DNA from: Acidithiobacillus ferrianus
GTDB taxonomy: Bacteria; Pseudomonadota; Gammaproteobacteria; Acidithiobacillales; Acidithiobacillaceae
Assembly: GCF_010378095.1 (NCBI RefSeq)
Contig: NZ_WNJL01000037.1
Coordinates: 124,001-188,000, forward strand
Direction: 5' to 3'
Length of the DNA: 64,000 nucleotides
Below are positions 10,661-49,401 of this stretch, in pieces. The position numbers and the translations under genes were made by a program. The notes beneath the pieces were generated by a model. That model had not been told where the DNA came from. It ran no database searches and saw nothing but the letters and a program-made list of their open reading frames with translations. Position 1 is the stretch's first letter. Each line of letters begins with the position of its first letter.

Positions 10661-10677
10661 TTGGCACACTGTTTGCT
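10661..10677 (+). promoter_or_regulatory. Sigma-54 promoter driving the amyloid-type genes
   Basis: TTGGCAC-N5-TTGCT has the exact GG-N10-GC spacing of a sigma-54 (RpoN) -24/-12 promoter. Transcription would start near 10688, about 28 bases before the ATG at 10716. Sigma-54 promoters need an AAA+ activator, and such a gene lies at the far end of this locus (20529-21920). Confidence 0.8.
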
Positions 10678-10715
10678 TAGGGATGAGCAGCAAGCTGACG
10701 CAATAGGGGTGGATT

Positions 10716-11033
10716 ATGGAAAGGCCGAAGTTCTTACAGCTTAGAAAGTGCCTGTGGGGCGCTCTCGCTGTGGGGGGGATGGCCTTTCCGCCCCTTACTT
10801 TTGCCGATTCCGCATCGGTACTGCACTTGAGCCAATTGCCGGTGCTGTCTAACTCCTCCCTGGCGGGCATTTGCGGCAAGGGAGAGCAGATCGACGGTCC
10901 GTCGGCCATTACCGGTCATCCCGGTGTAGTGCTCTGGGACGAAGTGGTGCAGCCGAGAAAGGGGCTGCCCGAGGTCAATATGGACGGTGGTTTGGGTAAC
11001 CAGCAGTTTAGTGCTGTGACGGTAGGCAGATAG
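10716..11033 (+). CDS. Secreted small protein of the amyloid-type cluster
   Basis: The product has 105 residues. A signal peptide is predicted at residues 1-31 (positive start, ALAVGGMAF core, TFADS). The mature region contains SLAGICGKGEQ at about 48-58, a motif that recurs as VLAKMCGRGE in the secreted protein at 13914. Near the C-terminus, VNMDGGLGNQQFSAVTV matches one unit of the repeat in the large amyloid-type protein at 11789. It is the first gene after the sigma-54 promoter and ends immediately before the next gene. It has no named family that I recognise. A minor fibril subunit or fibril-assembly role is inferred. Confidence 0.6.
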   Translation: MERPKFLQLRKCLWGALAVGGMAFPPLTFADSASVLHLSQLPVLSNSSLAGICGKGEQIDGPSAITGHPGVVLWDEVVQPRKGLPEVNMDGGLGNQQFSAVTVGR

Positions 11034-11717
11034 GTGGGCGATATGTTGGTACAGAAGATCTTGGCGAAGATGAATGGCGTGATGTTCGGCAGCGCGAGTT
11101 TGTTTGTTCTGCTCAATAGCGGGTTGGTGGTGGCGGACCCTGGATCAATTCCAACCTCCCCCTCCCCGATTTCGCAAAGCCTTATTACGGATAACGCCAT
11201 GCGTCATGTTCAGGGGTCGCTGATGGTGAATATGGCCGCTGGGATGGGTAACTCCCAGGCGAACACAGCGGTGATCAGTGTTCGTGGTCCAGGAGGTGGC
11301 TACGCTGCCTCCCAACCTGCGCAGACGAGGGCATCGGTACCCGAAAATATGCGCGGTGCAACCGGTGGGCCTAGTGTGACGGAGATTACGGGCAATGCGT
11401 TCACCCAGAGTAGTGGACTGATGGCGATCAATCAGGCCAACGGGCGGGCCAATGCGGAGTTTAATCACCTGGCCATTCAAACCGGTTTGCGCGGCCTTTC
11501 GACTGCGCAGATCTCAAACTCTCAACTGGCTCAAAGTGTCTCGGGACCAGAGTCGGGATATACGGAATTGCCCTTGGGCAATATGAAGACGTTGGCGGTG
11601 GGCGCCGATGCCTTCAAAGGGGCGCGCGGCGTCGCCATGGTTACCCAAGTATCGGGATCTGGTAATGCGGCGTCCAATAATTTCGCGCTGAATGTGCAGG
11701 CGGGCGCGATACGGTAG
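11034..11717 (+). CDS. Secreted repeat protein, candidate minor amyloid subunit
   Basis: The product has 227 residues with an N-terminal signal peptide ending near VVADP. One good copy of the locus repeat follows (QGSLMVNMAAGMGNSQANTA, about residues 59-78). Two degenerate copies come later (SSGLMAINQANGRANAEFN and GVAMVTQVSGSGNAASNNF). These resemble the glycine/asparagine/glutamine-rich units of Fap fibril proteins. The GTG at 11034 directly abuts the previous stop. An ATG at 11043 is an alternative start. By position and repeat decay it is comparable to FapB, but this is by analogy only. Confidence 0.6.
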   Translation: MGDMLVQKILAKMNGVMFGSASLFVLLNSGLVVADPGSIPTSPSPISQSLITDNAMRHVQGSLMVNMAAGMGNSQANTAVISVRGPGGGYAASQPAQTRASVPENMRGATGGPSVTEITGNAFTQSSGLMAINQANGRANAEFNHLAIQTGLRGLSTAQISNSQLAQSVSGPESGYTELPLGNMKTLAVGADAFKGARGVAMVTQVSGSGNAASNNFALNVQAGAIR

Positions 11718-11788
11718 TAAAACGGTAGACATATTATTGCTTAAAATCAATCAAGTATGGATCACTACACCCAGAGGAGTACACATCA

Positions 11789-13084
11789 ATGAAAACAAGA
11801 TTGACACCCATCGCGATTGCGATTACCACTTTCTGTCTTTCCCCGCTGGCGCTAGCTGGTGCCTATGTGCAGGGCGATCAGGTTTCTGCCCTGAACCAGG
11901 GTGTGGCTGGCTTCAATGCACCGAACAATTCAACGGTGAATGGCCAATCGTTGCGAGGAGCGACCGGCAATATCGGTGTGAACGTGGCAAGTGGTATGCA
12001 AAACCAGCAAGCAAACACCACCGCTATCGCCTCCAACTCCAACATCGATGACGTAGCGGCTTCCTCTGCTTATATGACTACCGGGCAAGTGGCCATCTTT
12101 AATTTTGCACTTCAAGGACTTACGGGTGCAAATAGCGCTGTTATGGAAGGGGGTGCTCTGGAAAACGCTTCGGGCAACCTGAATGTGAATATCACTTCCG
12201 GCATATTCAACCAACAGCGGAACAGTATGTCGTTAGCCACCAAAGCGCAATCCGACGGGGCTTTCACGACAGCTTTCACCACGCAGATGAGTGTCCTGAA
12301 TGCCGATTTGACCGGTTACATGGCCAACCATGCCTGGTTGGGTGGTGATGCACTGCTGGGGGCCACCGGGAACCTCGGTGTGAACATCGCTTCAGGTCTG
12401 AGTAATCAACAGGGCAACGCTCTGAGTGTTGCTCATGCTACCAACACCGATTCAGAGGGATACGGCCTGACTTCCTCGGCATTGCTCAACAGCAATCAGG
12501 GACTGGGTGGCACGGTGGCCTATCAGGGGATACCGTTCTTCTTCTTCAACTATATGCACAATCATGCTGGTTTGGGCAGCACCGCCCTGAAGAACGCCTC
12601 GGGCAACATTGGTGTCAATATCGCGGCGGGCGGACTGAATCAACAAGGCAACAGTACGGCTATCAGCGCGCTAACGGACGCTTCCAATAGTCAAGATGTT
12701 GCGAGCGCCGGAGCGGGTGTCAATCAGGTCAGCATGGGCAATCGTGTCATGGATACCGGCGTGACAGATACGGCCATCATCAATGGACAGGCGGGCATGG
12801 GTGCCTCAGGCAATATCGGTATCAATATGGCCGCTGGCGTTGGTAATCAACAACAGAATGGCCTTGCGTTGGCGGTTGTGGCTTCCAAGAATGCCATGGG
12901 ATCCGCTACGGCTCCGGTCACCCAGGTCGCGGCATTCAACGGTGGTTCGACGATTTTGTCCAGCTACACGGCCGGACTCGGTGGCCATGCGCTGCAAAAC
13001 GCGACCGGTAACATTGGCGTGAATGTTTCATCGGGTAACAACAATCAGCAGGCCAACACCCTGGCTATTGCCAGCGTGCAGTAG
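11789..13084 (+). CDS. Secreted six-repeat protein, candidate major functional amyloid subunit
   Basis: The product has 431 residues, a signal peptide of 23 residues (cleavage after ALA), and no cysteine in the mature part. Six repeats of about 22 residues start near 55, 124, 189, 267, 337 and 402. They are of the form GNIGVNVASGMQNQQAN, with near-invariant Gly-Asn, Val/Ile-Asn, Gly and Asn-Gln-Gln-x-Asn. They are separated by variable linkers of about 43-56 residues. This architecture matches Fap-type fibril subunits (FapC/FapB), whose repeats form the amyloid core, although those usually have three repeats. A strong SD (GAGGAG) precedes the ATG. A terminator-like hairpin follows the gene, consistent with extra expression of a structural subunit. 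Confidence 0.7.
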   Translation: MKTRLTPIAIAITTFCLSPLALAGAYVQGDQVSALNQGVAGFNAPNNSTVNGQSLRGATGNIGVNVASGMQNQQANTTAIASNSNIDDVAASSAYMTTGQVAIFNFALQGLTGANSAVMEGGALENASGNLNVNITSGIFNQQRNSMSLATKAQSDGAFTTAFTTQMSVLNADLTGYMANHAWLGGDALLGATGNLGVNIASGLSNQQGNALSVAHATNTDSEGYGLTSSALLNSNQGLGGTVAYQGIPFFFFNYMHNHAGLGSTALKNASGNIGVNIAAGGLNQQGNSTAISALTDASNSQDVASAGAGVNQVSMGNRVMDTGVTDTAIINGQAGMGASGNIGINMAAGVGNQQQNGLALAVVASKNAMGSATAPVTQVAAFNGGSTILSSYTAGLGGHALQNATGNIGVNVSSGNNNQQANTLAIASVQ

Positions 13085-13103
13085 GGTTATCCTGGCAGTT
13101 ATT

Positions 13104-13140
13104 GCAGCAAATGCGGCCTTGGCCGGATTTGCTGCCTTTT
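13104..13140 (+). terminator. Strong intercistronic hairpin after the major subunit gene
   Basis: GCAGCAAAT (13104-13112) with CGGCC (13114-13118) pairs with GGCCG (13121-13125) and ATTTGCTGC (13127-13135). CTTTT follows. It can act as a partial terminator or as an mRNA-stabilising element, lowering expression of the peptidase gene relative to the subunit gene. Confidence 0.7.
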
Positions 13141-13172
13141 ACAAAATTCAGAAATAATTAAGGCCATATACC

Positions 13173-13883
13173 GTGACGCGACTGATTACGCCTTATTTTA
13201 TACGGTGGATAATATTATTACTCATGGTGTTTTATGCAAGCCCGACATATTCTGCCGATATTGGTTTTGGCAATGTGATCCCAGGTGCTGGTGTGGTGCA
13301 TTTGTCGATGCACAGCATGAAAGGAATGCATTTCATCCATGTGGTGCGTCAGGAGGATGACTTCTCCTGTGGAGCAGCCTCGCTGGCGACTATTTTGAAA
13401 TATGGTTTTAATCTCCCAGTTACCGAGGATTCGGTAATGAAGGGACTTTTTCATATAAGCGATCCCGCAGTGGTACGCAAGATCGGGTTCTCATTGCTGG
13501 ATCTTAAGAATTACGTAGATAACATAGGCTTAAAAGGCCAGGGTTATGAAATTAATGTTGAGCAGTTGCAGCATGTGAATATCCCGGTCATCGTCCTCCT
13601 GAATCTCGGCGGGTACAAACACTTTGTCGTGGTGGAAAAGGTGACGGCGGCGCAGGTATATATGGCTGACCCGATGCTGGGAAACCGCATCATGGGTATC
13701 AAGGAATTTAAGAAGGATTGGAACGGAATTGTCTTTGCGATTTTTGGCAAGAATTACGATCCGCATAATGTGCTATTGACACCATCGGAACCACCAAGCG
13801 CATTGCGTGTCCTGCGCGGGCAGTTACCCGTGCTGAAGGTGCCAGTCGTACATTTTGGTTTCAATCAGGCGAGCCACTTTTGA
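13173..13883 (+). CDS. C39-type cysteine peptidase, FapD-like
   Basis: The product has 236 residues with a signal/anchor helix at 10-27. A papain-like C39 domain follows with all active-site residues: Gln60, Cys66 (DDFSCGAAS), His150 (GGYKHFVVVE) and Asp166 (YMADPMLG). C39 domains cleave leader peptides in bacteriocin exporters. In Fap operons, FapD is a stand-alone periplasmic version needed for fibril production. There is no ABC exporter here, so FapD is the better comparison. It starts with GTG after AAGG. The C-terminal 40 residues (after TPSEPPS) are an unassigned tail. Confidence 0.8.
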   Translation: MTRLITPYFIRWIILLLMVFYASPTYSADIGFGNVIPGAGVVHLSMHSMKGMHFIHVVRQEDDFSCGAASLATILKYGFNLPVTEDSVMKGLFHISDPAVVRKIGFSLLDLKNYVDNIGLKGQGYEINVEQLQHVNIPVIVLLNLGGYKHFVVVEKVTAAQVYMADPMLGNRIMGIKEFKKDWNGIVFAIFGKNYDPHNVLLTPSEPPSALRVLRGQLPVLKVPVVHFGFNQASHF

Positions 13884-13913
13884 TAGATGTAAACATGAGA
13901 GAGGAAGATGACC

Positions 13914-14675
13914 ATGAAAACCAACGCGAATGATAAAATGAGTTGGTTGCTGTATGGTATCGGTGTCTGCTTGGGGATACTACTCATGCCTCAGGCTCTC
14001 GCGGGAGACTTTATATTGACAGCTGCTCCTACAGTACCAGACCCTGTACTGGCGAAAATGTGCGGGCGCGGCGAGTTGGGCGGGCACATCGTTTTCTTCG
14101 GAATTCAGATGCAGACCCAATGGCAGCAAGGCGCGACCACTCAAAGCAGTTCGTTGAATGTTGCACTGAACAATAGTGGTAATACCTTCGTGCCCACGAT
14201 CACTTTTGTGCAAAACAATGTCCAACTTTCACGTCAGCTGGCGCCGAAAGATGTGCGAATGCAGGCTGCTGGGCTGAATAATGTGCATGGGGTGACCCAG
14301 GGTATTCAGATTGGTGGTGATCACAATACGGTCGGCAACAACGTGACCATGAACGTCGTTCGTGGCCAACCGGACATCTTGGCAACGGATTCCGGGGATA
14401 TCTTGGCAATGGGCACTCACACTGTAGGTAATACCACGCTAACCATCAATCCTGATACCCTGAGCATGATGATTAATAATGGAGCCAGCCAGGTTACCCA
14501 GCAGATTGGTGCCAATGGTCTCGCTCAACTGGTTCAGTTGGCGGCCAATAATAGCAATATTCGTAACAATATGACGCTCACTGTCGGAGAAAGTGCGACC
14601 AATCTGTCGCAGCAGATTAATCTGGCAGGCCTGCAGGGAATGTTGAATAACATGCGTGCATTGCCGGTACCGTAA
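13914..14675 (+). CDS. Secreted protein of the amyloid-type cluster
   Basis: The product has 253 residues, starting at the ATG after AGAGGA (an ATG 6 bases earlier is possible). The signal peptide ends near ALAGD. VLAKMCGRGE at about 41-50 parallels the motif in the first gene of the cluster. The rest is rich in Asn, Gln, Thr and aliphatic residues in strand-like blocks, for example GVTQGIQIGGDHNTVGNNVT and NNSNIRNNMTLTVGES, that loosely echo the N-Q repeats of its neighbours. It could be a fibril tip or adaptor protein (FapE-like position). I do not recognise a family. Confidence 0.6.
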   Translation: MKTNANDKMSWLLYGIGVCLGILLMPQALAGDFILTAAPTVPDPVLAKMCGRGELGGHIVFFGIQMQTQWQQGATTQSSSLNVALNNSGNTFVPTITFVQNNVQLSRQLAPKDVRMQAAGLNNVHGVTQGIQIGGDHNTVGNNVTMNVVRGQPDILATDSGDILAMGTHTVGNTTLTINPDTLSMMINNGASQVTQQIGANGLAQLVQLAANNSNIRNNMTLTVGESATNLSQQINLAGLQGMLNNMRALPVP

Positions 14676-14814
14676 GAAAGAATTCTCCGAACGGTTTCTT
14701 CTGTGCCGTTTTTGATGTGGCATACTCCTCTGCGGATACCCTGTATTCTATGGACTGTATTTTTCCATAATATTTTGATAAATATAGCACTTTATGGTGA
14801 AAAGAATGGTATCT

Positions 14815-14833
14815 TATCGGACTTTATCCGATA
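14815..14833. promoter_or_regulatory. Perfect inverted repeat, candidate operator
   Basis: TATCGGA-CTTTA-TCCGATA has 7-bp arms with no mismatch. It lies 12 bases upstream of the sigma-54-like element and could bind a dimeric regulator or form a hairpin. The cognate protein is unknown. Confidence 0.4.
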
Positions 14834-14845
14834 GTTTAGGTGATG

Positions 14846-14861
14846 TGGCACACTGATTTCG
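14846..14861 (+). promoter_or_regulatory. Imperfect sigma-54-like promoter
   Basis: TGGCACACTG is identical to the core of the promoter at 10662-10671. The -12 part reads TTTC instead of TTGC, so the GG-N10-GC rule is broken by one base. It would start transcription upstream of the TPR/YaiO gene. Confidence 0.35.
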
Positions 14862-15129
14862 TGAAACGTCAGGGGGGAGGAGGCTCCTTTCGGGTCTGTG
14901 TGCAGTGGTCCCTTCCATGCGTCGACAATTTCCATCACACGATAGCGAATATTCTATATCCATCTTATTGGGGCACGCTGTGTTACTCTGATGTCCGCCG
15001 TTTGGATCAGGCAAGGAGACGGGTGTGGTCAGGTGGATTTTTTACCAAAATCAGCTAGATAAATCGGTACTATTCCTTTACAATGAAGGGGCCATATACG
15101 AACTTCACTACGCAGTCTCGGACCCCACT

Positions 15130-16770
15130 ATGAAACAGTCAACAAAGGAAAATAAGAGGTACGCGGTGCCGCGGTCGCGTATTTCCGGGGGGCAACCCGG
15201 GTGGATAATTTTTGCGGTGGGTGCTTTTTTATGTCCTGTCTATCCAGTCGCTGCTCTGGCCCAGAACACATCGACACATGTGCCCACGTCCAGGGTCAAA
15301 GCACCCATAGATCACGGAAATGGGGTGGGGAGTGGTCGTTCGATGGGGAAGTCTGATGCTTCTGGTCGGGTCAACTATGACTCCGGTATCCTCTTGGCAC
15401 GTAACTATTTGGCTACGCACCGCATAGCGGATGCCATAAACGTCTACAGGATGCTCCAGAAAAAGTATCCGAATGATATGGAGCTTCATCGTTTGATTGT
15501 GCATTATCAGGGTGTTTTGGAGATAGAAAACGCTGAGTCTGCCCTTTCTGGAAAGCGCTATGATTTGGCAATTAAATTATCTAGAGAGCTCTATAGAGAA
15601 GGCATAGATCGTTATAGGGTAGGGTTAATTTTGGCGAAAGTCTATCTTGCCAAAGGCCAGGTAGGTCGTGCTGCGGAGATATATAAACATCTTGCCAGGC
15701 GTTATCCAATGGACCCGGATCTCGCCCGTCAATATACTCATCTCAACGCAGATATGACGCTTACCGAGGCCCAAGCGGATCTGCGCAAGGGGAATTGGCA
15801 GGATGCTATGGCGCGCAGCATCCCTCTTTATGAACATGGTCCCTATAGACTCCGGGCTGGGGAGATATTCGCGAGGAGCTATGTCGCGGCCGGGAGCCGG
15901 GAGCAGGCAGCTGTAGTCTATATGGCTCTTGAAAAAGATTACCCTGACAATGTAAGTTTGCGCGCGGCAGCGATATGGAATCTATTGTACGCATACCATA
16001 ACGACTCTGCACTACGTGCTTATAATGCGGTGCCTGAGAATGATAAGCCCACAGTGCTTCATGCGCTCGGGGGTAGTATTGCACCTTTATATACCAATTA
16101 TGTAATGCTTTTTGGGGGCATGGCGACGAGTACGCGAGGCTATCCCAACGATAACCGTGTAGGCATAGCGGTGAATAAAAGTTTTAAAGATGGTGCGCTT
16201 TATCTTTCGGCAAGTAAAGAGGCGCGTTTCGGGGAGCATGCCACAGAAATTAGTGGGGTATATTACTTTGGACTCCGTGACGGTTATTCTGGTTATGTAG
16301 GTGCCAGTTTTAGTCCAGAGAACAACTTCTTGGCGCATTACGGTGTCGTCCTTGGCTTGACTAAGAGTATCGGCAGTGTGGAGATTTATGGCTCAGTACG
16401 GCAGCTAGCGTTCTCGAATATCGATGCGACGGTATTGTCGGGCGGTGCGCGTTACTATTTTAGAAACCCGTTGTCGATAGGATTCACCACATTTTATGTG
16501 CCGCAAACTGATGCGTACAGTATTATGTTGTCACCGATATGGAATACCGGTGAGGACAACAAGATCTACATGAACCTATCAGCGGGGATGGCTGGCGAGG
16601 ATCTGGGGTCAAACCGCGGGATATTGAAGACCCCAAGCGCGACGATTGTTCTAGGAGATTCGATACGACTCGATGCGCATATCAGCGTCGGGGGAGAGGT
16701 GTTTCACGAGTATCGCAAGGCTCTCTACAATCGCAGCGGTGGTTTAGCATTTGTTCGGTATTGGTGGTGA
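15130..16770 (+). CDS. TPR plus YaiO-type outer-membrane barrel (polysaccharide export candidate)
   Basis: The product has 546 residues from the ATG at 15130. A signal peptide ends at AALAQ, about residue 45. TPR-like helices span about 85-290 (for example DAINVYRMLQKKYPNDMELH and AAEIYKHLARRYPMDPDLA). The last 200 residues are a beta-barrel of the YaiO/PgaA kind (ISGVYYFGLRDGYSGYVGAS) ending in the aromatic C-terminus FVRYWW. TPR-barrel proteins such as PgaA carry polysaccharide through the outer membrane. A GTG at 15025 with a much better SD (AAGGAG) would add 35 residues before the signal peptide, so the start is uncertain. The stop is followed at once by the HEAT-protein gene. Confidence 0.7.
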   Translation: MKQSTKENKRYAVPRSRISGGQPGWIIFAVGAFLCPVYPVAALAQNTSTHVPTSRVKAPIDHGNGVGSGRSMGKSDASGRVNYDSGILLARNYLATHRIADAINVYRMLQKKYPNDMELHRLIVHYQGVLEIENAESALSGKRYDLAIKLSRELYREGIDRYRVGLILAKVYLAKGQVGRAAEIYKHLARRYPMDPDLARQYTHLNADMTLTEAQADLRKGNWQDAMARSIPLYEHGPYRLRAGEIFARSYVAAGSREQAAVVYMALEKDYPDNVSLRAAAIWNLLYAYHNDSALRAYNAVPENDKPTVLHALGGSIAPLYTNYVMLFGGMATSTRGYPNDNRVGIAVNKSFKDGALYLSASKEARFGEHATEISGVYYFGLRDGYSGYVGASFSPENNFLAHYGVVLGLTKSIGSVEIYGSVRQLAFSNIDATVLSGGARYYFRNPLSIGFTTFYVPQTDAYSIMLSPIWNTGEDNKIYMNLSAGMAGEDLGSNRGILKTPSATIVLGDSIRLDAHISVGGEVFHEYRKALYNRSGGLAFVRYWW

Positions 16771-16772
16771 CT

Positions 16773-17891
16773 ATGGAACCTGCAATATTCAATGATGGCC
16801 CTCTGATAAAGATGGTGCTGGAGTGGACGAGCATTATTATGTTCGTTATTTTTTTTGCGATATTTACGACGCTTTTCGTTCTTAAGCAGAATGTCGAGCG
16901 TAAGGCGCTAAGTGTTGAGGATGCTAAGAATTATTATCTGAATTTCTTGCACGATATGGGACAGAAGTCCTCTTGGGATTTTATGCCCATAAATTCCGTG
17001 GTGCGGCGCTATGGATTCACTGCGGCCATTGAGGATTATTATAACAATCGCCCCATCCGGGATGCGCGAGTGACTGAGTTGATTTCATCGTCGGATATCG
17101 TCGCTTATTATCAGAAGCAGGCGAAGAGTCGTTCTTGGGCGGTGCGTTCCTTTGCGTATTTGCAGTTGAGTCGTTTGGGACTGCCTGGAATGAAGCAATT
17201 TTTTTACGCGTCGGCGGATATGGAGCAGATCAAGAAAAGAAGCGAAAAAGCGTTTGCAATATGTTTGTATTCTGCGGCTCTGCTTTGTGACACGCCGGAA
17301 GACTTTAAAAAGATACTTGCTTTGTTGCAAAAAGATCAGATGATTTCGGGAGGGTTTCAAGAGGGGATTCTGGTGTACGCAGGGAAAACCCTTAAATCAT
17401 CACTGGGTGATGATAAGGCATTTACCATATACCAGGACGCCTTACACGATATTCCTCCCTCTGAACCGGTGATGATCGCTCTTGTGGCTGCGGCAGGAAA
17501 GTTGGGATTCAGGCAAGTCGAACAGTTGTTGGGATACCTCTATGAGATGGCAGGAGAGAGGCAGGCCATACTGAAAGTTGCATGTCTGCGCTCCTTTGGG
17601 GAATTGAAGAAGGGTAGGATGTTTGTGGAACGTAGTTTGACTGACGCTGACTGGCGTGTGCGATCCACGGGCGCGCGCGTGGCGATTGCATTTGTGTGGG
17701 ATGAATTCATTAAGCCCCTTAAAAAATGTTTGACGGATAGTAATTATTATGTCCGCCTCAATGCCGCACGGTCTTTGGCGGGTATGGATGTGGAAGGTAG
17801 CGTTCTGACCCAGGCCATGAATGATACCGATGATCTCTATAGCAAAGAAATGTCGCATTATGCTCTTTCAGGATTGCCGGGTCATGCTTAA
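16773..17891 (+). CDS. Membrane-anchored HEAT-repeat protein
   Basis: The product has 372 residues. One transmembrane helix near residues 17-37 (SIIMFVIFFAIFTTLFVL) is followed by a long helical cytoplasmic or periplasmic part. HEAT-like repeats are clearest at the C-terminal end (SLTDADWRVRSTGARVAIA; CLTDSNYYVRLNAARSLAG). HEAT arrays bind other proteins, so a scaffold linking the glycosyltransferase to the outer-membrane porin is a reasonable inference. The gene sits exactly between the two and overlaps the glycosyltransferase start (ATGCTTAA), implying coupled translation. In-frame GTG/TTG codons just upstream are alternative starts. Confidence 0.65.
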   Translation: MEPAIFNDGPLIKMVLEWTSIIMFVIFFAIFTTLFVLKQNVERKALSVEDAKNYYLNFLHDMGQKSSWDFMPINSVVRRYGFTAAIEDYYNNRPIRDARVTELISSSDIVAYYQKQAKSRSWAVRSFAYLQLSRLGLPGMKQFFYASADMEQIKKRSEKAFAICLYSAALLCDTPEDFKKILALLQKDQMISGGFQEGILVYAGKTLKSSLGDDKAFTIYQDALHDIPPSEPVMIALVAAAGKLGFRQVEQLLGYLYEMAGERQAILKVACLRSFGELKKGRMFVERSLTDADWRVRSTGARVAIAFVWDEFIKPLKKCLTDSNYYVRLNAARSLAGMDVEGSVLTQAMNDTDDLYSKEMSHYALSGLPGHA

Positions 17892-19317
17892 GGAAGTAGG
17901 AAGTTTCCTGATAATATATCAGTATGCTATATTGACATATTTTCTGATTCTAAGCGGAGTTTATAGTGGAATTTTGATATATGCGTTCCATTATATGCGT
18001 AACTCAGAAAAGTCACGTATCGATGGTATTACGCTAAAAAAATTGATGTTTAATTCTAATGCGCGACCAGTATCAGTGCTTATACCAGCTTATAATGAAG
18101 AGGTGAATATACTGCAAACGGTATCATCAACGATAAATTGTGAGCATCCAGAATTTGAGGTGATTGTCATTAATGACGGATCAACGGATGCGACTCTGCA
18201 GACGCTTCAGGTGGCGCTGGAGTTAGTTATGAGCAGCAAACCCATCCAGAAAGTACTCCAATATGAAAAAATTAGGGATGTATATATTTCCCGAAAATAT
18301 CCTAACGTGATAGTAGTGGATAAAGAGAATGGCGGCAAGGCTGACGCGCTCAATGCCGGTATGGATGTTTCTACATATCCTTTTGTTTGCGCGATAGACG
18401 CTGATTCTATTCTTGAGCCGGATGCCTTGCTCAGAATCGGCAATCAATTTCTTATGGACAAAGAGCTGGTCGCCTCTGGAGGATCGGTTCGGGTGCTCAA
18501 TGGCTGTGAAGTCAAGGATGGCAGGGTGGTTCGGATTCGTGCGCCGCATTCCATTATTGAGTGTGTCCAGATCGCAGAATATTTGCGAGGATTCATGGCG
18601 GGACGGGTAACCTGGCAGAGTATGCACAGCTTACTCATTATCTCAGGCGCTTTCGGGATCTTCCGTAAGGACCTCCTCCAAAAGATAGGGGGTTATCGAA
18701 AAACGGTCGGTGAGGATATGGATCTTGTGGTCAGGCTGCATCGTTATTGCATCTTGAATAAAATAAAATATCGTGTCGCGTTTGATCCGGAGCCTGTATG
18801 CTGGACGCAGGTGCCGAGCGACTTTTTGTCGCTACTCAGGCAAAGAAATCGGTGGCAACGTGGACTGGTCGATAGTATGTGGCACAGCCGGGGCATGTTT
18901 TTTAATCCACGATACGGAAAAATTGGTTTTGTGGCGTTTCCATATTTCTTCTTTATAGAAACACTGGGACCGTTGGTGGAGATTACGGGTTATTTTAGTC
19001 TTGCCATATTCTGGATACTGGGTTGGGTGAGCATTGAATTCCTGATTTTGTTTTTTATTTTTGCCGTACTCTGGGGCGCTTTATTAAATATATCCGCGGT
19101 ATTGCTCGACAATCTGATTTCACGTCGATATGAGAAGAGCAGTGATGTCGCTTGGGTCGCGGCCTACAGCGCTTTGGAGTTTTTTGGCTATCGCCAGATT
19201 GTGGATATTGAACGGTTATTCGGCACCTTGTTCGCCTGGCGTACACACTGGGGACATGCAAAGAGAAAAGCCATGAGCAAATCCGATTTGACCGATGAGG
19301 AGAAAGTCACCCACTGA
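17884..19317 (+). CDS. Processive family-2 glycosyltransferase (polysaccharide synthase)
   Basis: This is an inner-membrane GT2 enzyme of 477 residues. N-terminal helix at about 12-32, then the catalytic domain with SVLIPAYNEE, VINDGSTDAT, the KADALN block, the DAD metal motif (CAIDADSILEP), GED (VGEDMDLVVRLH) and QRNRW (QxxRW). The last two mark processive synthases such as PgaC, NodC and BcsA. C-terminal transmembrane helices follow at about 345-425. The ATG at 17884 overlaps the HEAT gene and has AGGA upstream. The sugar is not predictable. The gene is noticeably AT-richer than the housekeeping genes around it, consistent with acquisition. Confidence 0.85.
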   Translation: MLKEVGSFLIIYQYAILTYFLILSGVYSGILIYAFHYMRNSEKSRIDGITLKKLMFNSNARPVSVLIPAYNEEVNILQTVSSTINCEHPEFEVIVINDGSTDATLQTLQVALELVMSSKPIQKVLQYEKIRDVYISRKYPNVIVVDKENGGKADALNAGMDVSTYPFVCAIDADSILEPDALLRIGNQFLMDKELVASGGSVRVLNGCEVKDGRVVRIRAPHSIIECVQIAEYLRGFMAGRVTWQSMHSLLIISGAFGIFRKDLLQKIGGYRKTVGEDMDLVVRLHRYCILNKIKYRVAFDPEPVCWTQVPSDFLSLLRQRNRWQRGLVDSMWHSRGMFFNPRYGKIGFVAFPYFFFIETLGPLVEITGYFSLAIFWILGWVSIEFLILFFIFAVLWGALLNISAVLLDNLISRRYEKSSDVAWVAAYSALEFFGYRQIVDIERLFGTLFAWRTHWGHAKRKAMSKSDLTDEEKVTH

Positions 19318-19320
19318 GGT

Positions 19321-19360
19321 CACACCAGAATTGAGTGTATACTCTAACATTACTGGTGTG
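19321..19360. terminator. Two-way hairpin between converging genes
   Basis: CACACCAG (19321-19328) pairs perfectly with CTGGTGTG (19353-19360). The inner GAGTGTATACTC is itself a palindrome. The hairpin lies between the glycosyltransferase stop and the end of the minus-strand barrel gene. Confidence 0.55.
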
Positions 19361-19385
19361 TACTTGCCGGGTCATGCGACCATCT

Positions 19386-20438
19386 TCAGAAGTTATACGG
19401 AACCGTCGCCGTCAATTGGAAGCTGGGAGCGCTATTGGTAAGACCAATGCCTAGGTTCATGATGACCGAAGTCTTTGGTGTGACGGCGTCGGTGAGCCCA
19501 AAATTGGCGACCGCAACATTTGCGCCGCTGCCGATGATGGGCTGCCACGGTTGCCCGTTCGCGCGGATTTGGGTTTGCGCTTGCATGCGTTCAGCATAGG
19601 ACATGCTCAGGCTCAAGCGATCATTCAGCGCATAGGCGACGCCTAATCCAAATTGAAAGGCGTTTCCTAAGGCGATTGTGCCAGGTGCGACGCTGCCGGA
19701 AGTGTTCAGGTTTTTCACGGATTGCGTCAGATTATAAGAATACCCGAGACTCGCAAAGAAGATGGCGGGATCCGAAGTGGATATGAAAGATACCCCGGGG
19801 GTGATGGTCCAGACCCCGTTCCCGGTGGGTAGGGTCGTTGGTACTTGCAAGTTGGAATTATTGGCGTCGGGAGTGACGAGCTGTATCCCATAGGGGCTGA
19901 TTCCAGTCGGCGCGGTCATCAGTACACTCGCAGTGACGCTGGGCCAGTTTTTAGACTCGTTGAAGACTTGGTAATAGGCACCAGCGCTGATGTCACCGAG
20001 ACGCGGTCCATGGGAGGTGACGGTCGCTTCACTTTGGGTGACTGAGGAGTAACCCGCGCCCCCCGTTTCATATGTGCTCGTTCGATAAAGCACCGGAACG
20101 TTGAGAACCACCTGCAAGCGATTGGAGAGCGGATAGTATGCCGATTCAGTGAAGGTATAGATGCTTGACTTCACCTTGGAGATGTTGATATTTCCAAGGA
20201 AGATGGCACCTAATGCGAGGAATCCGTTCAGGTTGAGGGTGTTCTGATCTGAATAGGCATAAGAAATACTGGATTGCAGTGTGAGGTGTGGATAGAAAAA
20301 ATCACTTTGCTGTTGGAGGATCGCTTTCTTGCTGGCTGATTCTGGTGGTGCCTTAAGATTGTCTGCGTAGGCGCTGGAGGTTGCCAGGCCGAGTGCCAGC
20401 AGCAGGGTTAGTCCAGTTTTAGGATGGCTTGTGGTCAT
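19386..20438 (-). CDS. Outer-membrane beta-barrel protein, FapF-like candidate
   Basis: The product has 350 residues with a signal peptide ending near AYADN. A short helical stretch (ESASKKAILQQQSDFF) precedes a barrel with many amphipathic strands (LQVVLNVPVLYRTSTYE; PRLGDISAGAYYQVF) and a terminal aromatic, VPYNF. It resembles the transporter/phenol-degradation MetA-like barrel group, which also includes FapF, the pore that secretes Fap fibril subunits after a coiled-coil plug. The location beside the amyloid-type genes makes the FapF role attractive, but the N-terminal plug is much shorter than in FapF. It is downstream of, and probably cotranscribed with, the sigma-54 activator gene. Confidence 0.6.
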   Translation of the reverse strand: MTTSHPKTGLTLLLALGLATSSAYADNLKAPPESASKKAILQQQSDFFYPHLTLQSSISYAYSDQNTLNLNGFLALGAIFLGNINISKVKSSIYTFTESAYYPLSNRLQVVLNVPVLYRTSTYETGGAGYSSVTQSEATVTSHGPRLGDISAGAYYQVFNESKNWPSVTASVLMTAPTGISPYGIQLVTPDANNSNLQVPTTLPTGNGVWTITPGVSFISTSDPAIFFASLGYSYNLTQSVKNLNTSGSVAPGTIALGNAFQFGLGVAYALNDRLSLSMSYAERMQAQTQIRANGQPWQPIIGSGANVAVANFGLTDAVTPKTSVIMNLGIGLTNSAPSFQLTATVPYNF

Positions 20439-20528
20439 GTAAATCTCCGTGGTGCCCTTTAGTCATTATGTCCTCCAGTATAAAATCGGCAATTTAAACG
20501 GTTTGATCGTACGCAACTATCGCGGTTA

Positions 20529-21920
20529 CTAGGACTTTGTGATGCCATGTTTTTCCATGAGCCGATATAGCGATACACGTGAAATACCCAGTTGCTGGGC
20601 TGCCACGGTCACGCTTCCGCGACTTTGGGCCAATGCGGCACGGATGCTGCCTACCTCGGCGTTGTCCCTGGCTTCGGTCAGAGTGACTTGCATGCGCGAG
20701 TTGGTGCGCCGTTCGAGACCAAGATCAACGGGTGAAATGAGAAATTTCTCGCACATCACCATGGCTCTGCGCACTCGATTGATGAGTTCACGAATATTCC
20801 CGGGCCAATCATAGTGATTCATGGCGTGCATGGCTTCTTCGCTGAACCCTTTTACCCGATGCCCTTTCTCGTTTGCGAAGCGGCGAAAAATATACTGGGC
20901 CAGGAGCGGGATATCTCCGGTGCGGTCCTTGAGAGGTGGCATTCTGATTTGCAGAACGTTTAGACGATAGTATAAATCCTGCCTAAAGCGACCATCTTTT
21001 ATAGCGGTTTCGAGGTTGACGTGCGTGGCGGCGAGTACTCGGACATCCACATGGATATCTTGACGTCCACCGATGCGATGAATGGTTTTTTCTTGTAAGA
21101 ATCGGAGCAAATTGGTTTGCAGATCCATCGGTAAATCACCTATCTCATCTAAAAACAGGGTACCGCCTGAGGCATTTTCGATGCGGCCAAGCTTTTTCTC
21201 ATGTGCTCCGGTAAATGCTCCTTTTTCGTGTCCAAATAGCTCAGATTGAATGAGATTCGCTGGCAGAGCTCCGCAGTTCACCGCGACAAAGGGTCCTCCT
21301 GCGCGCGATGAACGCTCGTGGATGGCCTGAGCGGTGAGTTCTTTGCCAGTCCCGCTTTCACCGGTGATCAGCACCGGCGCATCCACACCGGCTACTTTAC
21401 GGATTTCCTGATAAATTTTTTGCATCTGCGGACTGGCGCCTACCATCTCACTCTCATGGCCCCGGTTTGCCTCCCAGTCTTCCGACAGCATGGCATCCGC
21501 AGTGATCTGTGCCATGCCTCTGGCGTGTCCAAGTGTCAAAAGTAAACGTTTGCCATCTATGGGCAGCGAATGGTAGTCGTAAAAAGCACCGCCAATCAGT
21601 TGGCGCAATATGGGACGCTCCGCGGCTTCTCGGGGGATGAGAGCGATCCAGCGGAGAGCCGGGGCTTGGGCCACAACAATCTCTATCCGACGACCGTTGT
21701 CGGCGAGTTCTCGTTCGCCAAAAGCAATGAGACCGACCATGGGCGCGGTTTTGGTGATCAGACCGGGGACTTCCTCGGGCCCCGTTGCAAAAATGACATC
21801 CCAGCCCTCCTGCTGAAACAGGGGCGTCCATGGTGCCAGGACATCCCGGGGACCGAGATACAACAAGCTGCGGCTGGTTGCGCTGTCGTAGGTGTCTATT
21901 TCCCGCGTCTGGTTTTTCAC
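20529..21920 (-). CDS. Sigma-54-dependent activator, VpsR-like
   Basis: The product has 463 residues. The N-terminal 150 residues form a receiver-like domain without an obvious phospho-acceptor cluster. The AAA+ domain follows with Walker A GESGTGKE (187-194), the sigma-54 contact loop GAFTGA (234-239), Walker B TLFLDEIG (254-261), and a Fis-type helix-turn-helix at the end ([17 protein letters not shown]). VpsR-type activators control exopolysaccharide genes, in Vibrio with cyclic di-GMP. It starts with GTG at 21920 and has a weak SD. The sigma-54 promoter at 10661 is the obvious target, by inference only. Confidence 0.85.
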
Positions 21921-44960: not shown

Positions 44961-45926
44961 ATGCAAGTGAAGTGGAGGCACAGCCTGAAAAGCGGGTGGC
45001 GCTATATCGCCCTCGCACCGATTCTGTTGCTCGACGGCTGCGCGGGTAACCCCTATTGGATCTTCAACCCCAAAGGGTTGATGGCAGACAGTGACTTGTT
45101 CTATCTCATGGTGGATGTCGCGGTCATGGGTGTCATCGTCGGGCTCACGGCGCTGTTAGTGGTGTGGTTCATGTGGCGCTACCAGAAGGGTAAGAATCGT
45201 GGCGCATACGATCCCTCTTGGTCACATTCCAATGCTATCGAAGTGGTGGTTTGGGGTATTCCGATCATTGCGGTAGGTGTCTTGTCTTGGTTTGCCGTCA
45301 AGGGGACCTTCGAGATAAACCCCTATAATCCGACGGTCATTACCAAACACATGAAGCCCGATGATGATCCGGTGGAAGTGGATGTAATCGCCACGGACTG
45401 GCAGTGGCTGTTTGTGTATCCGCAGTATCATATGGCTGTGGCCAATGAACTGGTACTGCCCGCGCGCACCCCGGTATTTTTCCGTTTAACCTCCACCGCC
45501 GTGACTACGACATTCTTCATTCCGCAGTTGGTAGGCATGATCGATGTGATGCCCGGCATGCGAACCAAAAACGCGTTGGAGAGCAGCCATATGGGCAGCT
45601 ATCAGGGTATCGCCTCGGATTATGCGGGCGCGGGCACCTCGTGGATGACCTTTAAAACCAACATATTGAGCGCAACCGATTATAGCCAGTGGGTGCGGAA
45701 GGTGCAGCGATCGCCAGTATCGATGAGCTACGCCGGTTTCAATCGTTACGCTGACCCTTACATCAATGTGCACCATAAGGTGGTGTATTTCTCATCAGTG
45801 CAGGATGGTTTGTTTGACCATGTCATTGACGAGGTCATGAATGGCAAAACCTGGCCCATCCCGCCGATGATGACGGAAAACATGGTGGGGTACCTGCAGC
45901 AGCAAGATGCTGAACACCGCGATTAA
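44961..45926 (+). CDS. cyoA: Cytochrome bo3 quinol oxidase subunit II
   Basis: The product has 321 residues. A lipoprotein signal with LLDGC, two transmembrane helices at about 48-70 and 92-112, then the cupredoxin-like periplasmic domain, identify subunit II. The CuA-binding cysteines and histidines of cytochrome c oxidases are absent, as in CyoA, so the donor is a quinol and not cytochrome c. TDWQWLFVYPQ is the conserved aromatic stretch. It starts a four-gene cyo operon. Confidence 0.93.
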   Translation: MQVKWRHSLKSGWRYIALAPILLLDGCAGNPYWIFNPKGLMADSDLFYLMVDVAVMGVIVGLTALLVVWFMWRYQKGKNRGAYDPSWSHSNAIEVVVWGIPIIAVGVLSWFAVKGTFEINPYNPTVITKHMKPDDDPVEVDVIATDWQWLFVYPQYHMAVANELVLPARTPVFFRLTSTAVTTTFFIPQLVGMIDVMPGMRTKNALESSHMGSYQGIASDYAGAGTSWMTFKTNILSATDYSQWVRKVQRSPVSMSYAGFNRYADPYINVHHKVVYFSSVQDGLFDHVIDEVMNGKTWPIPPMMTENMVGYLQQQDAEHRD

Positions 45927-45941
45927 CAGGAGGATTGATAG

Positions 45942-48083
45942 ATGCTCGTAGATTTAGCCGGAGGCTGGAACCCCCTAGTGGGGCGTCTTGCCTGGTCCCA
46001 GATTCCCTATGACAACCCCATTTTGGCTCCACTCTTCGTCGCTGTCGTCCTCGGCGCACTCATGCTCTTGGGTCTGATTACCTATTATGGCAAGTGGACC
46101 TATCTGTGGCGCGAATGGTTGACGACCGTAGATCATAAAAAACTCGGCATCATGTACATCATCATCGGTCTGGTGATGCTGTTTCGTGGTTTTATTGATG
46201 GTTTGATGATTCGGACGCAGCAGGCGTGGGCGGTGGGATCACAATCTTCGGGTGTTTTTGGTGCGTTGCACGGCTACCTGACGCCCTTCCATTTTGGACA
46301 GATCTATAGTGCCCATGGCCTGATCATGATTTTGCTGGCGGCGACCCCTTTGCTGGTCGGTTTCATGAACATCATCGTCCCCATTCAGATCGGTGCCCGC
46401 GATATGGCTTACCCTTACCTGAATGCGTTGGGGCTATGGCTGACCGCCGCTGCGGGGGCATTGATCATGATTTCCTTGTTCATTGGAGATTTCGCGCACA
46501 ACGGCTGGTTTGGATATGCCCCTATTTTTGAACTGCAATATAGTCCGGGCGTGGGGGTGGACTACTGGATGTGGACGCTGCAACTGGTGGCCTTGGGTAC
46601 TACCCTGGGTGGTATCAATATTCTGTCTACCATTATCAAGATGCGTGCGCCCGGCATGACGTGGGGCCGTTTACCGATTTTTGTCTGGGCCTCGCTTTCG
46701 GCCAACGTGATTGCTCTGACCTCTTTCCCGGCATTGCAGGTGGCCCTTGCATTGGTTGCTGCAGACCGCTATTTGGGGGCGCATTTTTTTACGGCGGGCC
46801 TGGGTGGCAATCTGATGCTCTACACCAATCTCTTCTGGATATGGGGTCATCCGGAGGTGTATTTCGTGATTCTGCCGGCTTTCGGCATGATGTCGGAGAT
46901 CTTTCCGACCTTTTCAGAGAAGCCGTTGTTTGGTTACGTCACCATGGTGTTGGCCAGCATAGCCATTGCCGGCGTTTCCTGGCTGGTCTGGTTGCATCAT
47001 TTTTTTACCATGGGCGCAGGTCCGTATGTCAACAGCGCGTTCAGTGTGGCCACCATGTTGGTCGGCATTCCCACTGGTGTGAAGGTGTTTAACTGGGCAT
47101 TTACCATGTATCGCGGCCGCCTGACCTTCAATGCGGCCATGCTGTGGGCCATCGGTGCGCTGTTTCTGCTGCTCATCGGTGGTTTGACCGGCATGATGCT
47201 GGCTATTCCAGCCATCAATTACATGGTCCACAACAGCGTTTTTGTGGTCGCTCATTTCCACTCCATGCTGATGGTGATCGTATATGCCATCTTTGCTTCG
47301 GTGATTTACTGGTTCCCGAAAGTCTTCGGTTTCAAGCTGGACGAATTTTGGGCAAAGACCATGTTCTGGCTTTTTTCCGCAGGGACCGCGTTGGTGTTTG
47401 TGCCCATGTACATGCTGGGTTTCATGGGCATGACCCGGCGTTTGGACTACGTGTTCAACACCGCTTGGCAGCCGTATCTCCTGGTGATGGAGTTGGGCAT
47501 CGTCGTGTATATGTTCTCTGTTTTCGCATTCTTTGCACTGCTGTATGTCAGTATCCGTGATCATGCGAAGAACCGCGTCGGTGCCGATGCGTGGGGCACT
47601 TCCCGTTCTCTGGAATGGATCACGCATTCCCCGGTACCGTTTTATAACTTTGCCGTGGTGCCACAGATCAACGCGCGTGATGAGGCGGCTTGGCGACGTG
47701 AGAATGGCCTGGAACACATTCAGCCGGATCACTATGACGACATCCATATGCCGAATAATACCGGTGTGGCAATTATCTTGGGTGGTTTGAGCTTCACCTT
47801 GGGGTTCGCGTTGACCTGGCGAATCTGGTGGCTTTGTTTGCTTTCTCTGATCGCGATTATCGCGTTGGTGATCTACCGTTCGTTTAAGGGCGACCCCGGT
47901 TACATCCTCACCGCCGCGGAACTGGAGAAGATGGAGCAAGAGGCGATCCGGCGTGCGTCACGGATTGATGGTGGCCACCACCTTCGTCCGGTGCGTGGCG
48001 ATGGGTGGGCGCAGGAGCGTGCCGATCTGCCCGCTGCAGGAACACTGTATGGTTTGTCTTCGCCGATGGATCACCATAAGTAG
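45942..48083 (+). CDS. cyoB: Cytochrome bo3 quinol oxidase subunit I
   Basis: The product has 713 residues, with more than a dozen transmembrane helices. WGHPEVYFVILPAFG holds the CuB-ligand His-Tyr pair; the LVWLHHFFTMG histidines and VAHFHSMLMVIVY carry the heme-copper ligands. The protein pumps protons while reducing O2 to water. It is longer than E. coli CyoB at the N- and C-terminal ends. Confidence 0.96.
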   Translation: MLVDLAGGWNPLVGRLAWSQIPYDNPILAPLFVAVVLGALMLLGLITYYGKWTYLWREWLTTVDHKKLGIMYIIIGLVMLFRGFIDGLMIRTQQAWAVGSQSSGVFGALHGYLTPFHFGQIYSAHGLIMILLAATPLLVGFMNIIVPIQIGARDMAYPYLNALGLWLTAAAGALIMISLFIGDFAHNGWFGYAPIFELQYSPGVGVDYWMWTLQLVALGTTLGGINILSTIIKMRAPGMTWGRLPIFVWASLSANVIALTSFPALQVALALVAADRYLGAHFFTAGLGGNLMLYTNLFWIWGHPEVYFVILPAFGMMSEIFPTFSEKPLFGYVTMVLASIAIAGVSWLVWLHHFFTMGAGPYVNSAFSVATMLVGIPTGVKVFNWAFTMYRGRLTFNAAMLWAIGALFLLLIGGLTGMMLAIPAINYMVHNSVFVVAHFHSMLMVIVYAIFASVIYWFPKVFGFKLDEFWAKTMFWLFSAGTALVFVPMYMLGFMGMTRRLDYVFNTAWQPYLLVMELGIVVYMFSVFAFFALLYVSIRDHAKNRVGADAWGTSRSLEWITHSPVPFYNFAVVPQINARDEAAWRRENGLEHIQPDHYDDIHMPNNTGVAIILGGLSFTLGFALTWRIWWLCLLSLIAIIALVIYRSFKGDPGYILTAAELEKMEQEAIRRASRIDGGHHLRPVRGDGWAQERADLPAAGTLYGLSSPMDHHK

Positions 48084-48150
48084 CTGACCATTTTGCGGTG
48101 CTCGGAGATGCCGACCATCGCGGTATCATGTTATTCAAGAGGAGTTTTAT

Positions 48151-48786
48151 ATGCGTCCACCCGCAAGTGATGTTGACCCGAAGACGGCGGAATTATGGGA
48201 TAGACACCAGCATCAGCATGATGTGATTTCTACGCGCACACTGGGTTACTTCTTGTATCTGTTGAGTGATGCCATGCTGTTCGCGACGCTGTTTGCCGCT
48301 TATGGTGTGCTGAGTTACCAGCACAGCTATTTTGGGGGTCCCACCCCGGCGGACTTCGTGAAACCGTGGTATACCTTTGCCCAAACCATGGCGCTGTTTC
48401 TTAGTGTTCTGGCCTACGGTTTTGGTATGAATGCACTCAAGAACAAGAACAAGGGCGGCGTGATCAATGGATTGCTCTCGGCGTTCATATTGGGTGCGCT
48501 ATTTTTAGCGTTGGATATCCATGATATGGCGCATCTGGCGTCATTGGGTGTCAGCGTCGCGACCAGTGGAGGCGTGTCTGCATTTGTTGTCCTGACGCAG
48601 GTGCACGCTACCCATATTTTCTTCGGCCTGATCTGGATTTTGGTCATGATGGCACAGGTGATGACCAAGGGCTTTACCACCGAGGTGGTCGGTCGGTTGT
48701 TGACACTGCGCATGTTTTGGCATTTGCAGGCTATCATTTGGGTATTTGTTTATGTGTTTGTTTATTTGTGGGGATATATGTCATGA
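48151..48786 (+). CDS. cyoC: Cytochrome bo3 quinol oxidase subunit III
   Basis: The product has 211 residues with five predicted transmembrane helices and the family pattern LGYFLYLLSDAMLFATLFAAY. HATHIFFGLIWILVMMAQV and FWHLQAIIWVFVYVFVYLWG complete it. It stabilises subunit I. The SD AAGAGGAG precedes the ATG. Its end overlaps cyoD. Confidence 0.93.
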   Translation: MRPPASDVDPKTAELWDRHQHQHDVISTRTLGYFLYLLSDAMLFATLFAAYGVLSYQHSYFGGPTPADFVKPWYTFAQTMALFLSVLAYGFGMNALKNKNKGGVINGLLSAFILGALFLALDIHDMAHLASLGVSVATSGGVSAFVVLTQVHATHIFFGLIWILVMMAQVMTKGFTTEVVGRLLTLRMFWHLQAIIWVFVYVFVYLWGYMS

Positions 48787-49148: not shown

Positions 49149-49401
49149 CGGAACCCCTGCCGATGGGGATTGAGCGGAAAGCTGCCGCCCCCGCTGTATC
49201 GGCCGGTCCATTCCACACCACGGAATGAGATCCGACGGCGGTGCAGGCTATGGCTGGTTCATTCACTGCGGGATGTCCCCGGCGGCGTTGGAGGTGTGGC
49301 GCGGCCTCTTCTACTGGCATTTTGGTAGCGTTTCACCAGTTTATGGTTTTGCTCATGTGTCTCGCCATTGTTTTGCGATGGCGTTGAATGAGGTTTTGGC
49401 T

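Follow-up and report, generated by a model that had tools for sequence, protein, structure and literature searches.

Among the closest described counterparts of the locus examined here is the fapABCDEF amyloid system of Pseudomonas. For Pseudomonas fluorescens, the accessible parts of two reports describe an RpoN (sigma-54) promoter for fapA, a regulator gene, brfA, that lies beside fap and is needed, and a BrfA protein that senses cyclic di-GMP (c-di-GMP); fapF is not upregulated alongside fapA-E (PMC9207406, PMC13101488). Acidithiobacillus has been counted as Fap-bearing, with 4 to 8 FapC repeats and a deviating operon structure, in a paper whose main text does not contain the words "glycosyl," "polysaccharide," or "sigma" (PMC3792158). 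Vesicles of Fervidacidithiobacillus caldus contain FapF and FapD alongside Pel proteins, according to the accessible part of that study (PMC10853474). Pel has also been reported in Acidithiobacillus. Here, we analyzed positions 10662 to 21920 of a 64,000-nucleotide stretch of the Acidithiobacillus ferrianus genome (the window), in which fap homologs enclose genes for a putative polysaccharide synthase and exporter. We read this region as one biofilm-matrix locus with two products, an amyloid and a polysaccharide, switched on by a sigma-54 activator, and give this reading a probability of roughly 0.78.

Organization of the fap locus

The region comprises ten genes, which are open frames at the coordinates of a first-pass annotation of the sequence, and two sigma-54-like sites.

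10662..10676, plus strand: candidate sigma-54 (-24/-12) promoter TGGCACACTGTTTGC, about 42 bp 5' of the fapA-like start; perfect consensus match (10/10)
10716..11033, plus strand: fapA-like gene, small secreted protein with a leader-like motif, LAGICGK; assigned by position and the profile of relatives
11034..11717, plus strand: fapB-like gene, minor fibril subunit (NF058557, 1.6e-17)
11789..13084, plus strand: fapC-like gene, major fibril subunit with six GN(I/L)xVNxxSGxxNQ-type repeats (NF058558, 4.6e-45)
13173..13883, plus strand: fapD, C39 peptidase, Q60/C66/H150/D166 (NF058616, 6.6e-68; PF03412, 2.3e-23)
13908..14675, plus strand: fapE-like gene, secreted protein with a leader-like motif, LAKMCGR (NF058559, 2.8e-20)
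14846..14860, plus strand: sigma-54-like site TGGCACACTGATTTC, 5' of the YaiO-HEAT-GT2 module; 9/10, weak, with the -12 element TTTC
15025..16770, plus strand: TPR domain plus YaiO 14-strand outer-membrane barrel, likely polysaccharide exporter (TIGR04390 and PF19413 above cutoff; structure model; Foldseek)
16761..17891, plus strand: HEAT-repeat protein with a single N-terminal hydrophobic (membrane) helix (PF13646; hydrophobic stretch judged by eye)
17821..19317, plus strand: processive glycosyltransferase family 2 (GT2) polysaccharide synthase, predicted (PF13641, 4.6e-25; TIGR03937, 1.5e-39, below cutoff; QRNRW)
19386..20438, minus strand: fapF, amyloid exporter barrel without N-terminal coiled coil (NF058560, 2.9e-102; PDB 5o65, 2.6e-79)
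20529..21920, minus strand: VpsR-domain sigma-54 activator, candidate for a BrfA-like role (PF20161, PF00158, PF02954; GAFTGA)

Frames 10716 to 14675 form a fapA-E operon on the plus strand, with fapF apart on the opposite strand. The genes for the TPR-YaiO barrel, the HEAT protein, and GT2 sit between fapE and fapF and, as listed, overlap by 10 and 71 bp. Judged by the starts of relatives, YaiO likely begins at 15130 and GT2 at 17884, both inside the listed frames, and the latter start shrinks the 71-bp overlap. Sigma-70 and terminator signals were not above chance (10 versus 15.5 expected and 6 versus 11.4 expected, respectively).

The window shares with Pseudomonas fapABCDEF the FapB, FapC, FapD, FapE, and FapF homologs, the C39 catalytic residues, and the FapF barrel. 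The profile search proposed in the first-pass annotation, run with the Fap and YaiO models of NCBIfam and Pfam, recognized FapB to FapF and YaiO; all Fap matches fall under the NCBIfam equivalog cutoffs, which are naming thresholds. FapB and FapC carry imperfect repeats rich in G, N, and Q, and FapE and FapF are present in the cluster. Pfam finds Peptidase_C39 in the FapD frame, and its residues Q60, C66, H150, and D166, including the catalytic Cys, His, and Asp, bear out the earlier call of a C39-like peptidase with a full active site. No Pfam or NCBIfam model names the FapA-like frame (105 amino acids [aa]), and a database search with this protein returned only itself; its position, motif, and profile match are common to relatives, other Gammaproteobacteria included. 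Models of the putative Fil pilus system score far lower on the window proteins (FilB 5.7e-29 versus FapD 6.6e-68; FilC 8.6e-15 versus FapF 2.9e-102). Since FilB and FilC are not the best matches, a Fil system was rejected for the window.

The initial parts list of secreted repeat proteins, C39 peptidase, TPR barrel, HEAT protein, GT2, and activator held; its "second outer-membrane barrel" did not stand as a separate part. We rejected a role of this barrel in polysaccharide export because it is FapF, the amyloid's own exporter, whose residues 40 to 350 match the solved FapF barrel. The match to NF058560 begins at model position 89, and the frame starts shortly before the plug. Pseudomonas FapF has an N-terminal periplasmic coiled coil, D3-Q40, in the accessible text of PMC5557850; by its late match start, the window FapF is without a coiled coil of this type. 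The other 15 strong FapF matches of the Acidithiobacillaceae start at model positions 84 to 112 with two exceptions, genome G009, whose match was read through a stop and starts at 51, and genome G008, whose match lies at a contig start and begins at 177 (its other piece starts at 94). We infer coiled-coil loss for these remaining FapFs, two of the 15 frames having been read by eye. Unlike Pseudomonas fap, the window has fapF split off on the other strand, a FapF without coiled coil and linker, six FapC repeats, and a putative polysaccharide module between fapE and fapF.

A second FapC-like frame of 450 aa lies elsewhere in the same genome, about 190 kb from the fap operon (L184:1518-2870, contig C31, minus strand).

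Co-occurrence of fap and a GT2-barrel module

We surveyed 29 Acidithiobacillaceae genomes (numbered with G; loci are numbered with L). A FapF-type match was present in 19, of which three are weak and have Fil-like neighbors (G003, G014, and G019), and G027 has a fap operon in which FapF was not found. Seventeen of the 29 were counted as Fap genomes, including the reduced loci of G018 (fapB, the start of fapC, fapF, and the activator) and G028 (where just fapF and the activator were seen). The module of the window's kind (type 2), with YaiO, HEAT, and a GT2 of at least 60% identity, is confined to the same three genomes, G000, G008, and G022, the window's own included. A second module (type 1), consisting of a PgaC-like GT2 and a TPR barrel whose similarity to PgaA is weak and sub-threshold, occurs in 12 genomes, namely, 11 Fap genomes and G020. 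Taken together, a GT2 plus TPR-barrel module adjoins fap in 14 of the 17 Fap genomes (11 PgaC/PgaA-like and 3 YaiO-HEAT-GT2) and is present in 1 of the 12 other family genomes (Fisher P = 1.2e-4, uncorrected for kinship). The co-conservation expected from the first-pass annotation is seen for this kind of module next to fap; the exact set of eight genes is found in just 3 of the 29 genomes, the window's own included.

The coordinate difference between module and nearest fap gene ranges from 37 to 1885 in the 13 genomes measured. In G017, G021, G026, and G027, GT2 stands 36 to 110 bp after fapE, in the same orientation. The cluster is divided between contigs inside fapF in G008 and G010, and the G027 barrel is cut by a contig end. 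Both modules complete in the same genome were found in none of the 29.

In G018 (L048:5798-8194), fapB of near full length is followed by an approximately 90-residue fapC and then directly by the GT2-TPR module and fapF. In G016, at a distance from its main fap locus (C1:2317108-2321376), FapF fragments that contain stops come after FapC-like matches, which looks like a second, decayed fap cluster. The three family Fil-like loci (L061, L062, and L063) share C39 and FapF-like parts with the window, and their genomes have the same activator; unlike the window, these loci lack a barrel of the YaiO or PgaA-like kind, though two of the three have a distant GT2-like frame nearby (L061_13 and L063_1).

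Two unlike cassettes in one slot

Both module types were found in the same places. The gene order in G009 is secD and its neighbor, TPR-PgaA and GT2, fapF, fapE-A, and groEL; that in G008 is secD and its neighbor, YaiO-HEAT-GT2, one extra gene, fapF, fapE-A, and groEL. Likewise, the space between fapF and fapE holds type 1 in G021 and type 2 in G022. G026, which carries type 1, has a 42-residue YaiO remnant directly after fapF that is 69% identical to the YaiO of G022, and the FapF tree places G026 as the sister of G022 (94/89, just short of the full-support mark). This tree has 18 rows (frames below 240 aa, G023, and G027 were left out); of its 15 inner branches, 7 are open, and those with good support require the type-2 label to have changed at least twice. 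The fap genes and the module stay together at two genomic sites, beside a DEAD-box helicase gene or beside groEL.

We rejected the idea that the two modules are diverged orthologs. The GT2 tree speaks against it: type 2 (100/99) falls among mostly HEAT-linked GT2s of other phyla, apart from type 1. Its rows, of 430 to 560 aa, are 3 type-2 sequences, 12 type-1 sequences, L061_13 (from a Fil genome and labeled type 1), L165_7, and 30 others drawn from the 30 best-ranking far loci; we place no trust in the positions of L061_13 and L165_7, whose branches are very long. The barrels agree, in that profile comparison of the YaiO and PgaA-like barrels detected no relation (probability 1.3%, both profiles being shallow). 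Two unlike cassettes in one slot speak for selection for having a polysaccharide partner.

The extra gene of G008 (L059:15952-16782) lies between GT2 and fapF and encodes a 276-aa protein without a Pfam match, which by impression resembles a TIM-barrel hydrolase.

The activator and sigma-54-like sites

The activator combines a VpsR domain (PF20161, 8.9e-18), an AAA+ domain (PF00158, Sigma54_activat, 1.3e-73) with Walker A and GAFTGA at 234, and a Fis-type helix-turn-helix (PF02954, HTH_8), the arrangement of a BrfA/VpsR-like protein. A match at 1e-100 or better is present in 20 of the 29 genomes, which are exactly the 19 FapF genomes plus G027 (Fisher P = 1e-7, uncorrected for kinship). Its gene is a neighbor of fap in the window and eight other fetched Fap loci (G012, G018, G021, G022, G023, G024, G027, and G028); coordinates place it near fap in G017 and G026 too. 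The genome of the window has one rpoN.

Sites were scored against the sigma-54 consensus TGGCAC-N5-TTGC. Upstream of fapA, a -24/-12 site scoring 9 or 10 of 10 was found in all 11 rows, from 10 loci; such a site arises in 5.7% of random 460-bp windows, and a 10/10 score arises in 0.6%. Five closely related members with TTGGCATATTATTTGCTT-like sites do not count as independent. Nine of the 11 sites lie 32 to 44 bp before the listed start, and two lie just inside an apparently overlong one. In front of the modules, the three YaiO operons scored 9, 9, and 8, five type-1 GT2 operons divergent from fapF scored 9, and G012 scored 8, so that seven of the nine scored modules not placed directly after fapE have a sigma-54-like site in front; the GT2 promoter of G018 was left out of the scoring, its frame being absent from the selection of open reading frames (ORFs). 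The five type-1 sites coincide with the listed GT2 start or fall just inside it, and these starts must be overlong if the sites are real. In L054, a 9/10 site lies 159 bp before the listed YaiO start, at a distance similar to that of site 14846 in the window. Modules of G017, G021, and G026, where GT2 closely follows fapE, scored 7 to 8, as would be expected if the fapA promoter reads GT2.

Like the BrfA system of P. fluorescens PF07, the window has a sigma-54 activator beside fap and a -24/-12 promoter candidate at fapA, and the window fapF, whose counterpart is not upregulated according to the accessible text on BrfA, has no good site in front of it. The likeness is one of domains and position, with c-di-GMP binding predicted; unlike BrfA, the window activator probably also drives the polysaccharide module. 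A novel mode of fap regulation was rejected, since the accessible parts of PMC9207406 and PMC13101488 already report control by sigma-54 and an enhancer-binding protein in Pseudomonas. The regulatory half is thus known, and its extension to a polysaccharide is what we newly infer. The first-pass idea of two halves under one activator is supported at the sequence level, once its second barrel is corrected to FapF and the precedent in Pseudomonas is acknowledged.

Parts of the YaiO-HEAT-GT2 module

The YaiO protein joins predicted periplasmic TPRs to a YaiO-family outer-membrane barrel (PF19413, 36.2 with a cutoff of 23.9; TIGR04390, 55.9 with a cutoff of 32, 5.7e-15). Its structure model (mean predicted local distance difference test [pLDDT] score of 77, with residues 1 to 114 unreliable) shows TPR helices at 118 to 355 and 14 strands. 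Structure prediction had been proposed as a check on whether the barrel and GT2 belong together, and it points the same way: Foldseek puts the cellulose exporter BcsC at ranks 1 and 2 (1.3e-9, template modeling [TM] score of 0.30), followed by PelBC at rank 4 and, with generic porins in between, 4y25 at rank 38, which we take to be PgaA.

GT2 has the motifs NDGSTD, DADS, GED, and QRNRW of processive synthases and weakly matches a hyaluronan synthase in the PDB (residues 37 to 379, about 1e-4). Poly-N-acetylglucosamine (PNAG) was rejected as the polymer because GT2 scores 136.1 bits against TIGR03937 (PNAG synthase PgaC/IcaA), far under the cutoff of 422.3, and PgaB was unmatched in the ten scanned frames. 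With PgaABCD and BcsABC, the window shares a processive GT2 and a TPR-barrel exporter; unlike them, it has a HEAT protein, and no PgaB, PgaD, BcsB, or PilZ family match was obtained in those ten frames. The HEAT model (pLDDT 93) consists of a long N-terminal helix and a helical solenoid and is structurally closest to designed alphaRep proteins and to PP2A scaffolds. By visual inspection, basic residues come after the hydrophobic segment, which suggests that the solenoid is cytoplasmic.

These data also bear on an alternative in which GT2 modifies the envelope or the fibril, for example by glycosylating FapC or a surface glycan, with no free exopolysaccharide being made and a different cargo for the TPR barrel. 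In its favor, the sequence does not name the polymer, the TIGR03937 score falls short as described, and in structure comparison the barrel alone resembles generic channels of the FadL/OmpG type, which also counts against the polysaccharide export that we propose. The QRNRW motif, the hyaluronan synthase match, the BcsC-like TPR-barrel architecture, and the composition of the alternative module, a PgaC-like GT2 with a weakly PgaA-like barrel, all oppose it, and we consider this alternative very unlikely. A processive synthase with its own exporter remains our preferred view of the module.

Fap and the module outside the family

We then looked at relatives of each half. Thirty-three of 369 genomes of the class had a FapF match at 1e-30, two of them (G000 and G018) family members; the other 31 gave 33 loci of up to 20 kb, some shorter, many of which are Fil-like and not Fap. 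An activator frame lies near 16 of these 33 Fap/Fil-type loci. In the only one with a recognized GT2 nearby, L165 of the non-family genome G235, fapE and fapF flank a UDP-GlcNAc 2-epimerase gene, a GT2 gene, and a bactofilin-like gene (L165:4145-9281), a possible independent third linkage of amyloid and polysaccharide.

For the window GT2, the best 80 of at least 532 related loci were examined, 11 of which had no GT2 frame in the ORF selection. HEAT frames were present in 59 and YaiO-like frames in 11, and the HEAT gene lies directly 5' of GT2, as in the window, in 53 of the 69 loci with a recognized GT2 frame. This pair, an unnamed system, spans many phyla (L085, L093, L071, and others of L065 to L144), and a module of YaiO, HEAT, and GT2 specific to Fap was therefore rejected. 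Unlike in the window, response-regulator, GGDEF, or histidine kinase genes adjoin the pair in three of three far examples scanned (Pfam scans of far neighbor genes covered one or two examples of each), which makes control of GT2 plausible.

Several observations weigh against a joint locus. The module was not found in G023 and G024, which have fap genes (G024 being 61% complete), or in G028 with its fapF and activator. G020 carries a type-1 module without Fap, and G018 keeps the module, fapF, the activator, and fapB with a fapC that ends after about 90 residues and with fapD and fapE not found on the module stretch. These two genomes argue that the module does not depend on Fap and speak against selection for a partner. 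In G001, G008, G009, G010, G015, and G016, the activator lies away from fap, at another genomic location or on a different contig. In the window, the -12 element of site 14846 is poor, 5 sites with no more than one mismatch were found where about 7 are expected, and no site above 8/10 precedes fapF or the activator. Outside the family, GT2 was recognized near just 1 of the 33 Fap/Fil-type loci, and among the best 80 of at least 532 GT2-relative loci, fap genes occur in just L065, the relatives in other phyla being without Fap.

The modules that stand alone or beside a decayed fap operon, the Fap-free relatives in other phyla, and the six genomes with an unlinked activator favor an alternative in which two independent matrix systems are mere neighbors on a shared island, perhaps with a shared regulator, and their products do not cooperate. 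It is opposed by the linkage in 14 of 17 Fap genomes through two non-orthologous modules that use the same slots, by the operon-like spacing in four genomes, and by the joint occurrence of fap and module at two genomic sites. We regard mere neighborhood as improbable and retain the reading of one locus with two products.

A shared leader-like motif in FapA and FapE

The N-terminal parts of FapA and FapE align on a common motif, [LM]xx(I/V/L/M/Q)xG(K/R/G and a few others). The form with L occurs in 28 of 29 FapE rows, in 27 at the aligned place (29% of shuffled sequences), and in all 16 FapA rows (14% of shuffled sequences). The FapE row of L161 matches only elsewhere and that of L151 not at all, both having M for L. 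The pattern is found in 3 of 12 FapB, 1 of 15 FapC, 0 of 18 FapD, and 6 of 20 FapF rows. The 29 FapE rows include two copies from G026 and three Fil-type rows (L061, L062, and L063), which read LAKLRGG, a double-glycine leader form.

In the accessible text of PMC5557850, the target of FapD is unclear, no canonical C39 sequence is seen, and just FapE looked N-terminally processed, by about 70 residues. We propose that the motif is the recognition site of FapD, and predict that FapA may be cut as well; peptide data for FapA in the accessible part of the same paper stand against such cutting in Pseudomonas. The fuller picture, in which either of two non-orthologous cassettes fills the slot at the fap cluster, a single c-di-GMP/sigma-54 activator fires both halves, and FapD processes both FapA and FapE through a shared, degenerate leader of the double-glycine type, seems to us evenly poised between right and wrong.

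Other features of the window

Elsewhere in the window, positions 2402 to 2531 match the S-adenosylhomocysteine (SAH) riboswitch just over the gathering score. Genes for cytochrome/quinol oxidase subunits II, I, and III, UbiA, and an MFS transporter stand in a row at 44961 to 51610, which looks ordinary.

Proposed function and implications

We envisage that the sigma-54 activator (20529 to 21920), of the c-di-GMP-sensing kind, would turn on fapA-E from the -24/-12 site at 10662 and probably also the YaiO-HEAT-GT2 operon from the weaker site at 14846. FapB and FapC would be Sec-secreted and held in an unfolded state, with FapA and FapE handling them and FapD assisting in their maturation, before their release through FapF to form surface amyloid. 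GT2 would synthesize a polysaccharide and thread the chain across the inner membrane, probably scaffolded or regulated by the HEAT protein on the cytoplasmic side, and the TPR domain of the YaiO protein would lead the chain through the periplasm into the barrel. Amyloid and polysaccharide would then meet as physical partners in a composite matrix.

Among the open-licence papers listed, none was found to describe a polysaccharide module linked to fap, and a Pseudomonas survey tells of none either in its accessible part, in line with the earlier remark that no described Fap system fused to such a module is known. Matrix amyloids and exopolysaccharides are usually studied separately; this family, which includes bioleaching species, appears to encode both in one cluster. 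The shared leader motif of FapA and FapE offers a concrete candidate for the FapD cleavage site, and the widespread, unnamed HEAT-GT2 pair is placed in a matrix context. With different polysaccharide halves joined to the same amyloid half, it becomes directly testable whether Fap fibrils need such a partner and whether any polymer of this kind would serve.

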